DNA of 51,143 nt. Origin: Geitlerinema sp. BBD 1991-9 (GTDB lineage: Bacteria > Cyanobacteriota > Cyanobacteriia > Cyanobacteriales > Geitlerinemataceae). Shown here piece by piece: positions 29,973 to 47,438 of this stretch. The translations under genes were made by a program, and so were the position numbers. The stretch covers positions 32,001-83,143 of the forward strand of contig LWRO01000040.1 in NCBI GenBank assembly GCA_001657325.1, given 5' to 3'. Position 1 is the stretch's first letter. Every line of letters begins with the position of its first letter. The notes under the pieces are model-generated. The model was not told the origin of the DNA. It worked only from the letters and a program-made list of their open reading frames with translations, and ran no database searches.

Positions 29973-30623
29973 GTGACAGCAAAGATGAAAGACCTCGAAA
30001 TCCTTCAATCGAGACAATTCGAGCACCTACGAGGTGCCGACCTCGAAGAACAAGACCTGTCCGGCTTCGATTTGCGAGATATCGACTTGTCCGGGGCCAA
30101 CCTCGTCGGGGCAAATTTGTCCAGTTGTCGGCTCGAAACAGCTCGTTTAGAAGGTACGAACCTCCTTGGCGCGTCTTTGTACCGAGCGGACGCCCGCGCG
30201 ACTTTTCTCGGTGCAAACCTGATGCAAGCGGACTTACGGGAAGCCGACTTGCGGGGTGCCAACTTGCGGGGTGCGAATTTAATGGGGGCAATGCTGCAAC
30301 AAGCAGCACTCAGTGGCGTGTTTTTGAGCGGTGCAACGCTGATGGGTTCGAGTTTGCAAGGGGCAGATTTGCGCGGGGCGGATTTGCGCGGGGTCAATCT
30401 CAGTGGAGCGAATCTTTCGGGAGCCGACCTGTCATACACCGATTTACAAGGGGCCTTATTGACTGAAGCCAACCTAGAAGAAGCCAATCTCAACGGGGCG
30501 AATTTATCTGGGGCGACTTTGGTGCGAGCGAACTTGCTCTGTGCGGACGTGCGAGGAGCGAAACTCGAAGGCGCGAACTTGACGGGAACCTGTCTGACGG
30601 GAACCATCCTAATCGCGTCGTAG
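29973..30623 (+). CDS. Pentapeptide-repeat protein
   Basis: 216 residues, starting with GTG immediately after the TAA of the DICT gene (an ATG at 29985 is the alternative). Almost the whole protein is A(D/N)LXX repeats, for example ADLREADLRGANLRGANLMG and ADLRGADLRGVNLSGANLSG, about 35 units, predicting a long quadrilateral beta-helix. No signal peptide, so it is likely cytoplasmic. Zero-base spacing suggests translational coupling with the DICT/HD-GYP-like regulator. Some such proteins mimic DNA and bind gyrase, but most have unknown roles. Confidence 0.9.
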   Translation: MTAKMKDLEILQSRQFEHLRGADLEEQDLSGFDLRDIDLSGANLVGANLSSCRLETARLEGTNLLGASLYRADARATFLGANLMQADLREADLRGANLRGANLMGAMLQQAALSGVFLSGATLMGSSLQGADLRGADLRGVNLSGANLSGADLSYTDLQGALLTEANLEEANLNGANLSGATLVRANLLCADVRGAKLEGANLTGTCLTGTILIAS

Positions 30624-36508: not shown

Positions 36509-37846
36509 TCACACCGAAGACTGACTCAAAGAAGGAAGCCAACTGACAATTCCAGGGAAACAAATAATTGCAACTAACACCAGAATTTGTAATATCACAA
36601 ATGGAATCGCCCCTCGGTAAATATCCCCTGTTTTCACCTCAGGCGGTGCAATACCCCGGAGATAGAACAATGCAAACCCGAACGGTGGCGTGAGAAACGA
36701 CGTTTGTAAGTTCGCTCCTAAAATGACCCCGTACCACACCATATCCATCTCAAAACTTTGGGCAACTGGGGCAAATAGTGGCACGATAATAAACGCAATT
36801 TGGAAAAAGTCGATAAAAAAGCCCAGAAAAAAAACGATCGCCATACTCACCGCCAAAAAGCTCACTGCTCCACCGGGAAGGTTCGCTAAAGCGGTTCGCA
36901 CGAACTGTTCGCCGTTGAGTCCGCGAAATACCAAACTAAACGCCGTCGAACCCAGCAAAATAAAGACCACCATGCTGGTAATCCGCAACGTCGAATCGCT
37001 AACTCGTTGCAACGAATCCCAGGAGAGTTGACGGTTTACTAATGCCAAGACGATCGCACCTAAACTCCCCACAGCGCCCGCTTCTGTCGGCGTTGCGATG
37101 CCGAAAAAGATACTTCCGAGTACCAAAACAATCAGCAGCAAGGGCGGTACCATTGCCTTGAGAACCCGAATTCCCAAATCGCGGTTGCCCATTTTGCGAA
37201 CTTCAGACGGCAGTGCAGGCGCCAGTTCCGGACGCAAGTTAGAGATCGCGAGAACGTGAACGGCAAATACCCCCGTCATCAACAACCCCGGTATCATCGA
37301 CCCCACAAATAAATCTCCCACCGAAACGCCTAACTGATCGGCAAGGACGACTAAAACCACACTAGGAGGAATGATTTGCCCGAGCGTTCCCGACGCGGCG
37401 ATGACACCCGTAGCAAGTTCTTTGTTGTAGCCGTAGCGCAACATGATCGGCAGCGAAATCAAGCCCATTGCAACCACCGTTGCCGCAACCACGCCCGTCG
37501 TCGCGGCGAGTAACGCCCCGACGAGAACGACGGCGAGGGCGAGGCCACCACGGACTCGTCCGAAGAGAATACCGATCGTTTCTAGCAAGCGTTCGGCAAT
37601 TCCCGATTTTTCCAACATTGCCCCCATAAAGATGAAATAGGGGATCGCCAACAGGGTGTAGTTGGACATCGTGTTAAACACTTGCAGGGGAAAATTACCC
37701 CACAGTGCAAAACTAAATCGGCCGGTTGCCGTGCCGATGAGACTGAAGAGAATGGCGACGCCACCGAGGGTAAAGGCGACGGGGTAGCCGACTAACAAAA
37801 GGGCTAGAGCCACGCCAAACATTGTAATTCCCAACCATTCAGCCAT
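36509..37846 (-). CDS. TRAP transporter large permease (DctM/GtrB-like)
   Basis: 445 residues with about 12 membrane segments. Family features: PIMLRYGYNKELATGVIAAS, GTLGQIIPPSVVLVVLADQL and ATPTEAGAVGSLGAIVLAL. The large subunit catalyses Na+-coupled uptake with a periplasmic binding protein. The best remembered cyanobacterial counterpart is GtrB (Synechocystis glutamate TRAP system), but substrate is not proven. It overlaps the small permease by 8 bases, implying coupling. No binding protein gene (DctP/GtrC) is adjacent, again as in Synechocystis where it lies apart. Confidence 0.93.
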   Translation of the reverse strand: MAEWLGITMFGVALALLLVGYPVAFTLGGVAILFSLIGTATGRFSFALWGNFPLQVFNTMSNYTLLAIPYFIFMGAMLEKSGIAERLLETIGILFGRVRGGLALAVVLVGALLAATTGVVAATVVAMGLISLPIMLRYGYNKELATGVIAASGTLGQIIPPSVVLVVLADQLGVSVGDLFVGSMIPGLLMTGVFAVHVLAISNLRPELAPALPSEVRKMGNRDLGIRVLKAMVPPLLLIVLVLGSIFFGIATPTEAGAVGSLGAIVLALVNRQLSWDSLQRVSDSTLRITSMVVFILLGSTAFSLVFRGLNGEQFVRTALANLPGGAVSFLAVSMAIVFFLGFFIDFFQIAFIIVPLFAPVAQSFEMDMVWYGVILGANLQTSFLTPPFGFALFYLRGIAPPEVKTGDIYRGAIPFVILQILVLVAIICFPGIVSWLPSLSQSSV

Positions 37847-38387
37847 CTCGCCCTTCCTCCTCGGATGCCGTCAAACGTGTAAACACCGACCACTTTTTAA
37901 TAGCTTCAGAAACACCTTGCAGAATCAGCAAGACGAAACTAACGAGAACAAACGTTTTGATAGGATAGCGGGGAAGTCCACCCGGATCGGGGGAGGTTTC
38001 CAAAATATTCCACGAATTGACAATCGGCGACCAGACGAACCACAGGGCGATCGAGCAAAACGGAATTAGAAATAACAGGGTTCCGATGAAGTCGGCGAGG
38101 GCTTTCCGTCGCGGCGGCCATCCGCTATACAATACGTCCATTCGCACGTGTTCGTTCTGTTTGAGCGTGTAGGCAGCTCCTAAGAGAAATACGAGACTGA
38201 AGAGATACCATTGAGCTTCGATGAAAACGTTAGAACTTAGGTTCGTGCCGATTGCTTGACCGACGTAGCGTCCAATAACGTTCCACACGCCAACGAATAC
38301 CATTAATAACACGAGCAAACTCGCCAGACGACCGATCGATTCGTTGGCACGATCGATGAGTCGCGACAGACGCAACAGGATTTGCAA
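37839..38387 (-). CDS. TRAP transporter small permease (DctQ/GtrA-like)
   Basis: 182 residues with four membrane helices. The pattern NVIGRYVGQAIGTNLSSNVF, EAQWYLFSLVFLLGAAYTLK and HVRMDVLYSGWPPRRKALAD is typical of DctQ subunits. It is translated before the large permease, with an 8-base overlap. Together they form the membrane part of a TRAP importer, likely for a carboxylate or amino acid such as glutamate; that substrate is inferred from GtrAB. Confidence 0.9.
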   Translation of the reverse strand: MQILLRLSRLIDRANESIGRLASLLVLLMVFVGVWNVIGRYVGQAIGTNLSSNVFIEAQWYLFSLVFLLGAAYTLKQNEHVRMDVLYSGWPPRRKALADFIGTLLFLIPFCSIALWFVWSPIVNSWNILETSPDPGGLPRYPIKTFVLVSFVLLILQGVSEAIKKWSVFTRLTASEEEGRDG

Positions 38388-38732
38388 CAGACTTTCTCCC
38401 TACGATCGATATGAGAAATGAAGCGATTTTGTATTTTACCAAGGAAGTGACGGTTGGGAACTTACGATTTAGGGGTTTGACGATTGACGATTGACGATTG
38501 GTGGTTTTAGAACGCTTTACGGCTGAAGGCGGAAAGGTCGTCTGAGTAAGACTTAATACTTACCTCCGACATCCGATATCTATGAGGTACAATATAGGTA
38601 GTTTGAGACGCTTGTACGAAACGAAACCGGCTGGGATTGAGTGAAGCCGACTTGGATTGAGCAAAATCGACTTGACCAGATAAACTATTGCTTTGACATC
38701 ATCTCGATCGTCGATCGAGTACATTACTGCTT
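38388..38732. repeat. 345-nt spacer with two repeat sets between the TRAP operon and the GAF gene
   Basis: 38477-38500 is TTGACGA repeated 3.4 times. 38634-38653 and 38654-38673 are two contiguous 20-bp near-copies, GGATTGAGTGAAGCCGACTT and GGATTGAGCAAAATCGACTT. A TACAAT box at about 38588-38593 may belong to the GAF gene promoter, putting the 20-bp pair in its leader. Confidence 0.65.
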
Positions 38733-39227
38733 ATGTTCGATCGTAAATTAAAAATCCTCGCCCATCGCCTCTCTAAATCTCTGGCAGGCGATGTAATCGT
38801 ACAAAAGACGGTTCAACAAATTCGAGAACAACTACAAGTCGATCGAGTCGTGCTGTATTATTTTTATCGAAAATGGAAAGGACAAGTGACGTTTGAATCG
38901 CTGTCATCACCGAGTTTGTCCATTTTGGGTTCGACGGGTGCAGACGATTGCTTTAACGACGAATATGCTCGACTCTATTTAGAAGGGCGATATCGCTCGA
39001 TCGAGGATATTAAAACAGCTAAAATTCATGCGTGCCATCGAGCATTCCTCGAGAGTATTCAAGTCCGAGCAAATCTGGTTGTTCCAATCCTCAAAAATCA
39101 AGATTTGTGGGGCTTGCTCGTCGCACATCACTGTCAATCACCTCGCCCCTGGCAATCCAAAGAAGTTGAAGCCATGCAATCGGCTGCAAAACAATTAGAA
39201 ACCGCTGCGGCAATTCGGAATGTGTGA
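38733..39227 (+). CDS. Stand-alone cyanobacteriochrome-type GAF protein (DXCF class)
   Basis: 164 residues that consist of one GAF domain and nothing else. It has the bilin-binding signature: Cys-101 followed by His-102 in HACHRAFLESIQVRANLVVP, and the LWGLLVAHHCQSPRPW tail shared by cyanobacteriochromes and phytochromes. It also has the DXCF motif, D-D-C-F at 71-74, whose Cys-73 lies 28 residues before Cys-101. This equals the Cys494-Cys522 spacing in TePixJ. The pattern predicts dual-Cys blue/green-type photochemistry. With no output domain, it would act through protein partners or as a modular photoreceptor subunit. It is divergent from the TRAP genes. Confidence 0.75.
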   Translation: MFDRKLKILAHRLSKSLAGDVIVQKTVQQIREQLQVDRVVLYYFYRKWKGQVTFESLSSPSLSILGSTGADDCFNDEYARLYLEGRYRSIEDIKTAKIHACHRAFLESIQVRANLVVPILKNQDLWGLLVAHHCQSPRPWQSKEVEAMQSAAKQLETAAAIRNV

Positions 39228-39363
39228 CCGAGGCAAGTTGGTGGATCGCCAAGGCATGCTCATGAAACCTAGACTTTTTACTTTTAATTACCTAAAAATC
39301 TGTCGTTCGGAAATTATCAATCCTCAAATCTTCTAAACTGCAAGTTATAAATCGTAAACTCTC

Positions 39364-39708
39364 TTACGGTATCCCTGGAAAAGAATTCACAAACTCGATC
39401 TCAATATCGGGAAAAGAATTGACAAATTTAACGGTAAAGTCGGGAAACGATTCGACGATTCTCCACTTCCCACAAGAATCGGGAAAAGATTCGACGACTT
39501 TGACTTTTAGATCGGGAAAAGATTCGACGACTTTGACCTTTAAATCGGCAAAATGCTCGACCACTTTGACATCGCCATAGAGTTGAATTCCGTCCGCCGC
39601 GCAATGATTCTCGTTAACATTTCCCGTTGACGATCGAGCGATGCTGACAGACAAAATTACCAGCAAAGCCAACAACACTCCGATCGATTCACGCCACCGT
39701 TTCGTCAA
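39364..39708 (-). CDS. Secreted short-repeat protein resembling the 7(1) septoil-knot family
   Basis: 114 residues. The N-terminus (basic, then LLALLVILSVSIARSS) is a signal peptide. The mature part is about six 11-residue units: DLKVKVVESFP twice in near-identical form, a unit with an inserted Cys (DSCGKWRIVESFP), DFTVKFVNSFP, DIEIEFVNSFP and a short GIP tail. The two Cys (HCAADG and DSCG) could form a disulphide. The repeat pattern resembles the family annotated as 7(1) septoil knot (earlier a DUF); this is from memory and moderately sure. It follows the TPR gene by 22 bases on the same strand. Confidence 0.65.
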   Translation of the reverse strand: MTKRWRESIGVLLALLVILSVSIARSSTGNVNENHCAADGIQLYGDVKVVEHFADLKVKVVESFPDLKVKVVESFPDSCGKWRIVESFPDFTVKFVNSFPDIEIEFVNSFPGIP

Positions 39709-46166: not shown

Positions 46167-46991
46167 TTAATTCGATCGACGACGGCGAAAAACACGAACA
46201 GCTGCACCAATCACCATCAAACCGATCGCTGCAGACGGTTCGGGAACCTCTGTTGGCGTCGGCGTGGGAGGAGGAGTTGGTAACGGTGTCGGGACGATCG
46301 TGGGAGCCGGAGTCGGTGTCGGCGTGGGAGTTGGAGTTGGAGTTGGAGTTGGAGCGGGGGGTGGCGCAACTGCGTACATTTTTGTACTACCATTGCGGTT
46401 TGCACCCACACTTTGCATCCGCACGCCGAAGTCTTGGTCGGCGAAGTCTTGGTCGATCGTTAGGAATTCGGTATCGTGCTTGACGATAAACGATGTCCCT
46501 TGGAAATCGTCGTTGCCTTTTAAACCTTGACTTCCAATTTCGATGGCAACGTTGAACCCGTCTGAGGGAGCGATTGCGTTGGGATACGAACCCGTATCAA
46601 CCCCACCATTGAGAGCAGCTTTTTTGGCTTTGAGAAGATTACCCGACGAACTCGTGAAAACATCGCTGCTTTGAATACTGTAAAAATTCGCAGCATTAAT
46701 GTCGCTAAAAGGGTTCGAGTTCGCCGTGATGTTTAAGCCGCTCACCAGGCTGGCATCACTGATATCGAAGAAGATCCCTCTGAGGTCGGCGAGATTGACC
46801 GCTGTATCGACTTTAAAATCAAATTGAACACTACCATCATCTAAATCCGTCAGCCAGACATCGACTTCGGCGTTACTCCCCGTAAATGGAGAGATGGAGA
46901 AGCTCAGCGACGCCGCCTGCGCTGAATTTACTGTAAGGAGGGCTATCGACGGTAGGGCCGCGCCCAGCGTTATCGCTAAAAATCGTTGCAT
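46167..46991 (-). CDS. PEP-CTERM protein with (PT)n spacer
   Basis: 274 residues from ATG 46991 (MQRFLAITLGAALP); an ATG at 47012 would add seven. Signal peptide ends VNSAQAAS. The middle is a beta-rich region resembling a cohesin or choice-of-anchor-like sandwich (VDVWLTDLDDGSVQFDFKVD). A Pro-Thr spacer of ~40 residues follows, then the PEP-CTERM tail: EVPEPSAAIGLMVIGAAV and basic RRRRSN. On DNA the spacer contains a tandem hexamer run (GTTGGA units on the plus strand near 46331), prone to length change. No exosortase gene in the window. Confidence 0.85.
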   Translation of the reverse strand: MQRFLAITLGAALPSIALLTVNSAQAASLSFSISPFTGSNAEVDVWLTDLDDGSVQFDFKVDTAVNLADLRGIFFDISDASLVSGLNITANSNPFSDINAANFYSIQSSDVFTSSSGNLLKAKKAALNGGVDTGSYPNAIAPSDGFNVAIEIGSQGLKGNDDFQGTSFIVKHDTEFLTIDQDFADQDFGVRMQSVGANRNGSTKMYAVAPPPAPTPTPTPTPTPTPTPAPTIVPTPLPTPPPTPTPTEVPEPSAAIGLMVIGAAVRVFRRRRSN

Positions 46992-47438
46992 TGCCTTCCT
47001 AACCCTATACAAGAAATACCACTTCTGACTCTAGTGTAGACACACTTTCCTCAATCGATCGAAAACTTTCTGCAAAGTTCCGTGCGGAATTTATGAATTT
47101 TTGATGTGCGAGGCTTCGTAAATCATTTCTTGAATTCTTGAAATCCTTACCTGATGGGAAATTAAAGATTTTGTTTTTATCTCGATTCTGACCGTGTATA
47201 ACACGAATTTTATTTAGTTTGTTGAGGAAATGTACGACATTTGAAATGCCTTTTTGAGGTATTTTTTGCGTGTATTCACGGATGTTCGATCGAGGATAAT
47301 ACGGAGAAAAATGCCAAAGCACGATCTTTCGTTCTCCAGCTCTCGCCCTGCCCCCGGCATCGCCAACATCCGATAACTGTGTCAGAGTAGTGACAGGCCG
47401 ATCGAGGGTCGGTTGAGTTCCCTTACCTTCAAGTGTAG
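46992..47438. other. 447-nt A/T-rich spacer between the PEP-CTERM and transglutaminase-fold genes
   Basis: Divergent promoter region. It includes a terminator-like element at 47245-47267: AATGCCT, loop TTTTG, AGGTATT and more T (plus strand). There is no upstream plus-strand gene to terminate, so it could mark a small RNA or leader. A 5-bp inverted repeat TGTCA/TGACA lies at 47380-47395. A long minus-strand open frame here has no family features and is not called. Confidence 0.45.

Follow-up and report, generated by a model that had tools for sequence, protein, structure and literature searches.

An output-less GAF protein of the DXCF cyanobacteriochrome type, conserved in single copy in a subset of cyanobacteria

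As commonly understood, cyanobacteriochromes provide the light input to kinases, cyclases and chemoreceptors. For the chemoreceptor TePixJ, passages of PMC6955287 describe Cys522 as holding ring A of the chromophore and Cys494 as reversibly binding C10 of phycoviolobilin. Conversion of phycocyanobilin to phycoviolobilin is usual, not universal, in DXCF cyanobacteriochromes, according to part of PMC11284453. A precedent for action in trans is provided by PixD, a short soluble photoreceptor that contacts the response regulator PixE in a light-dependent manner (passages of PMC5812497). Here we analyzed a stand-alone GAF protein encoded in a 51,143-nucleotide stretch of DNA from Geitlerinema sp. 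BBD 1991-9 (the window). The protein resembles the TePixJ photosensory domain in its cysteine motifs but, unlike TePixJ, is output-less. It is comparable to PixD in working principle only, the BLUF fold and flavin chromophore of the latter being unrelated.

Motifs, register and fold

The photoreceptor gene (Table 1) begins with ATG and runs for 164 codons to a stop. Its product contains GAF PF01590 (4.8e-22, residues 21–158 of 164) as sole Pfam domain, overlapped by two weaker GAF models under their cut-offs. The open frame amounts to 176 codons, starting 12 codons upstream of the ATG and ending at the same stop, so it conceals no fused output; the single GAF domain is all that Pfam detected there, with no output module. 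Nor was a PHY domain, as expected of a phytochrome, found after the GAF domain, with which the protein ends. An earlier note on this DNA, made from the sequence alone, had described a GAF-only protein of 164 residues with a DDCF motif and a Cys101-His102 pair, and the translation and domain scan bore this out. Its spacing of 28 between the two cysteines was accurate as a distance in positions, but only 27 residues lie between them.

Table 1. Coordinates of the photoreceptor gene, its motifs and its upstream flank in the window
Feature	Positions	Strand	Basis or remark
Stand-alone DXCF-type cyanobacteriochrome GAF protein, 164 aa	38733..39227	+	ORF, translation, Pfam, orthologs, model
DDCF motif, residues 71-74; second Cys is Cys73 (TePixJ Cys494)	38943..38954	+	Alignment
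Canonical Cys101-His102 (TePixJ Cys522-His523); Cys101 is the predicted bilin attachment site	39033..39038	+	Alignment
Family-specific pre-DXCF loop S-I-L-G-S-T-G, residues about 64-70 (approximate stretch)	38924..38942	+	Row comparison
Upstream intergenic region, divergent DctQ-like gene to photoreceptor gene	38388..38732	+	
TRAP transporter pair DctM + DctQ	36509-38387	-	Divergent from photoreceptor gene

Residues 9–151 aligned to the TePixJ GAF domain (3vv4) without a gap (phmmer, 2.2e-22), as did a profile built from 18 orthologs (5e-31). The offset to TePixJ numbering was 421 throughout, using residue numbers from passages of PMC6955287. The window DDCF thus aligns to TePixJ DPCF, and Asp71, Cys73, Arg86, Cys101, His102 and Asn114 correspond to TePixJ Asp492, Cys494, Arg507, Cys522, His523 and Asn535. 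An AlphaFold model from an 87-row alignment (mean pLDDT 88.3, pTM 0.83) superposed on TePixJ 4glq with Z 22.6 and rmsd 2.1 over 149 residues at 32% identity. The best PDB matches by both sequence (2.7e-27) and fold (Z 24.7) were not TePixJ but miRFP670nano proteins. These were engineered from the lineage of NpR3784, which has no DXCF cysteine; it is therefore the cysteines, rather than fold or overall sequence, that single out the DXCF group. The GAF fold, the canonical Cys-His pair and a second cysteine within DXCF, all found here, are those of a cyanobacteriochrome. Neither Cys73 nor Cys101 was out of register in the alignment, and the assignment to the DXCF (TePixJ) type made in the earlier note stands.

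Three TePixJ residues named in the PMC6955287 passages are not shared: His498, Trp499 and Gln526 are replaced by Glu77, Tyr78 and Phe105 in the window protein. Because the residues at Trp499 and Gln526 have changed, the colours of TePixJ may not apply to this protein. With respect to chromophore supply, the source genome carries genes for PcyA (334 bits against a cut-off of 206), a PebB-type bilin reductase and two heme oxygenases. Phycocyanobilin can be made, since PcyA and heme oxygenases are both encoded.

The stand-alone family and its multidomain relatives

Among 386 genomes drawn from across the phylum, with the source genome included, 57 (the source genome among them) contained exactly one match each at E up to 1e-44, where at most the best nine first-look candidates were scored per genome. 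Their frames spanned 165–213 codons with no internal stop. A profile rerun recovered the same 57 at 206.6–294.9 bits. The next profile match scored 173.2 bits, and from there down all the rows listed lay in frames of at least 383 codons. This gap of at least 33 bits, which is independent of frame length, sets the family apart from the scored multidomain cyanobacteriochrome domains. The source genome itself yielded 30 matches, all but the query in open frames of at least 516 codons. Short orthologs were present in five of 19 close genomes (source included), identical or at 53–67% identity. Scanning named genomes located 16 loci, including Baaleninema, Planktothricoides, Limnofasciculus, Fischerella, Pelatocladus, Desmonostoc and Nostoc, and all 13 genomes examined of one genus carried the stand-alone gene. 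A search for viral copies turned up 14 pattern matches, but none of them was a relative. Conservation of the stand-alone form, in single copy, shows that the protein is not a fragment. This is in keeping with the suggestion of the earlier note that it could be a natural minimal photoreceptor.

Orthologs were picked by score, or by identity above 49% combined with a frame below 230 codons, giving 73 loci that encode 72 distinct proteins. Cys73, Phe74, Cys101, His102, Tyr42, Tyr45, Trp48, Arg86, Trp126 and His132 were invariant in all 73, the distance between the cysteines was always 28, and Asn114 was retained in 71. The motif pattern is more than chance, as Cys73, Phe74, Cys101, His102 and their spacing are identical at every orthologous locus. 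The DXCF aspartate (Asp71) was kept at 61 loci and replaced by Ser in eight and by Glu, Asn or Arg in four, so that some members deviate from a strict DXCF motif. Orthologs without the aspartate retain both cysteines (L081, L083, L087, L097, L109, L110, L116, L119, L120 and others), and this sub-group is possibly a natural colour-tuning variant. Across 118 pairs at 80–98.5% protein identity, the median dN/dS was 0.17 and no pair exceeded 0.37; the stand-alone clade is under purifying selection. Nostocales-type loci (L061–L067, L069–L070, L073–L074 and others) carry an N-terminal tail of ~17–20 residues before the GAF domain. It begins at an aligned GTG with a consensus like V-Q-I-H-P-H-S-E-F-N-H-S, and is absent from the window protein.

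A tree of 80 GAF domains, built by a quick method, was computed with 26 stand-alone rows (the window and 25 of the 72 other loci) and with multidomain rows of at least 120 residues; loci L014, L019, L021, L024, L026, L028 and L030 were dropped. All 26 stand-alone rows fell on one side of a branch with SH-aLRT 100, a test partly selected in that the orthologs had been chosen by score or by identity and frame length. The clade sits in a larger group with GAF domains from multidomain proteins (support 93, not starred). The closest multidomain relatives scanned all contained further GAF domains and HATPase_c (4/4). The nearest are GAF-GAF-histidine kinases (in the source genome C80, 708 codons) at 44–47% identity. 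They share the dual-Cys motif, present in their GAF as G-x-x-G-A-D-D-C-F, but are fused to GAF and HATPase_c and form a clade separate from the stand-alone proteins. On the simplest reading, the output was lost once and the solo form has persisted for long since, though the tree by itself gives no direction.

In multidomain sensors the end helices mediate dimerization and provide the link to the output. We compared 63 of the 73 stand-alone rows with 24 multidomain rows, excluding gaps from the counts. The pocket signature was common to both, with Cys73 and Cys101 each present in 63/63 stand-alone and 23/24 multidomain rows and His132 in 63/63 and 22/24, respectively. The first and last helices, in contrast, differed. 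Arg14 occupied 19 of the 21 multidomain rows with a letter and no stand-alone row, and position 19 was Leu in 16/22 multidomain but Arg in 58/63 stand-alone rows. Towards the C-terminus, Leu151 (20/24 multidomain) was mostly Gly or Ala in the stand-alone rows, and both Gln154 (20/22) and Ile157 (20/20) were mostly Thr. Newly conserved in the stand-alone rows were Tyr43, Tyr45, Gln51, Thr53, Ser67, Thr68 and Asn75. Tyr43 was found in 62/63 of these rows, compared to Gln or Arg in 23/24 multidomain rows. The loop preceding DXCF was likewise fixed in the stand-alone rows (Ser67 59/63, Thr68 61/63, Gly69 63/63) and not conserved in the 24 multidomain rows. The helix erosion fits a protein that would no longer signal in cis, and the newly conserved residues fit a possible new interface.

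Gene neighbourhood and Alr3356 of Anabaena

In the window the gene is flanked on one side by the divergent TRAP transporter pair and on the other by a small repeat protein, past which comes a TPR protein. Its own promoter is presumably contained in the upstream intergenic region (Table 1). Promoter-like consensus sites (3 against 1.9 expected) were not above chance, and no terminator was seen, leaving these scans uninformative; positions 38300–39700 gave no Rfam match for a regulatory RNA. Among neighbours at 17 loci, the setting was closely matched only in Baaleninema. No operon partner was shared across the neighbours of 17 and of 43 loci, and none can be named because the widest neighbour families reached only 10/43 loci, local to related genomes. 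A 114-residue ORF at 39364–39708 (-) contains repeats of about 11 residues, with 33-nt direct repeats at 39373–39563; it had no match in the Pfam scan and has a counterpart in Baaleninema. Elsewhere in the window, the ORF at 46167–47012 (-) shows a Pro-Thr repeat followed by V-P-E-P-S, a hydrophobic stretch and an Arg-rich end, which we take to resemble a PEP-CTERM sorting signal. The ORF at 29973–30623 (+) encodes 216 residues with pentapeptide-repeat-like A-D-L-x-x motifs.

At eight of the 73 loci, ndhH lay directly upstream on the same strand, a count in which it may be missed at the 27 loci (L075–L101) with about 1.5 kb of flank each. The same arrangement occurred in 4/8 further regions from four additional genomes. 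This gives 12 genomes in total, and in the most closely examined genus the arrangement held in 7 of 12 genomes; the adjacency was absent in the window and at most loci. In Anabaena PCC 7120 the ndhH gene is numbered alr3355 (passages of PMC8147232 and PMC12923008). PMC4788461 describes Alr3356 of Anabaena/Nostoc sp. PCC 7120 as a phytochrome-like cyanobacteriochrome whose GAF domain binds a chromophore. According to the same paper, alr3356 rose 3.94-fold with furA switched off and was bound by FurA in vitro (EMSA positive), making it a direct target of this iron/redox regulator. It also cites Ma et al. 2012 (FEBS J) for seven blue-absorbing GAF domains of PCC 7120. As alr3355 is ndhH, and ndhH precedes the family gene in 12 genomes, Alr3356 is probably the PCC 7120 ortholog of the window family, judged by ndhH synteny, gene numbering and description. 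We presume that Alr3356 is one of the seven domains of Ma et al. 2012. Judged by their listings, the papers returned by the literature searches included none about a conserved family of cyanobacteriochromes without an output. The novelty implied in the earlier note is reduced: the kind of protein is known and one probable member, Alr3356, has been published as a cyanobacteriochrome, so that the advance is modest.

Proposed function and alternatives

The reading we favour, and hold to be reasonably likely, is that this stand-alone protein is a dual-Cys cyanobacteriochrome of the DXCF type, sensing blue light and passing the signal on in trans. Photosensing as such is very likely, given the motifs and their register. 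Phycocyanobilin would be attached at Cys101, and Cys73 would add to C10 to give a blue-absorbing dark state, probably with isomerization to phycoviolobilin. Light would then flip the 15,16 bond and break the Cys73 link, yielding a green- or teal-absorbing state. The altered surface could bind or release a separately encoded partner, for which response regulators, kinases and other GAF proteins are candidates. Contact-based signalling in trans appears, on balance, the best explanation for the absent output, although no PixE-like partner was identified for the window protein. The soluble light switch acting through protein contact proposed in the earlier note is plausible and would fit the loss of helix residues. 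More tentatively, and with slightly more doubt than belief, we propose that a cyanobacteriochrome lineage shed its kinase to become a trans-acting switch with remodelled dimer and linker helices and light-dependent binding of a candidate partner. Its family-specific surface would comprise Tyr43, Tyr45, Gln51, Thr53, Arg19 and the Gly-Ser-Thr-Gly loop.

A specific form of trans signalling would be a detached photosensory subunit that docks onto one of the GAF-GAF histidine kinases of the organism and modulates it. GAF domains do form helix-mediated dimers, and the GAF and HATPase_c content of the closest multidomain relatives is as this model would have it. Yet the helix positions altered here are the very ones that kinase-linked GAFs conserve, and no kinase occurs among the conserved neighbours at 43 loci; we regard docking as unlikely. 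Comparably unlikely is a bilin-binding protein that does not act as a signalling sensor but serves as a pigment sink, a bilin carrier or a photoprotective or redox protein, for example one linked to iron or redox state. The lack of output and of a conserved partner gene would suit such a role, as would the control of alr3356, a probable relative, by FurA (passages of PMC4788461). Against it, the second cysteine, the one that makes a photocycle two-coloured, is kept at all 73 loci, and a mere carrier would not need the retained His102 and the nearly constant Asn114.

Bilin binding is itself a prediction, and 12/73 loci lack the DXCF aspartate, which leaves some room for a GAF domain with a different ligand, or with no ligand at all, that keeps its cysteines for other reasons. 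With the whole bilin-pocket signature in register, a cyanobacteriochrome fold match and the chromophore enzymes present, we consider this improbable. The absence of output modules could also mark a pseudogene or a truncated relic of a multidomain photoreceptor. This candidate was rejected as scarcely credible: the short form is open, with no internal stop, in 57/57 gene-bearing genomes, forms one clade and is under purifying selection (median dN/dS 0.17), and no fused close relative appeared among the matches listed.

The interest of the locus lies in the conservation of the solo architecture together with the eroded signalling helices. A conserved lineage without an output makes it testable whether a cyanobacteriochrome can signal alone, through protein contact. 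If so, the family would represent a natural blue-responsive bilin switch of roughly 18 kDa and an as yet unexplored light pathway, which FurA might connect with iron status should Alr3356 prove to belong to the family. If the lineage did shed its kinase to act in trans, the protein would parallel PixD with a bilin as its chromophore and could be used as it stands as a minimal optogenetic binder.
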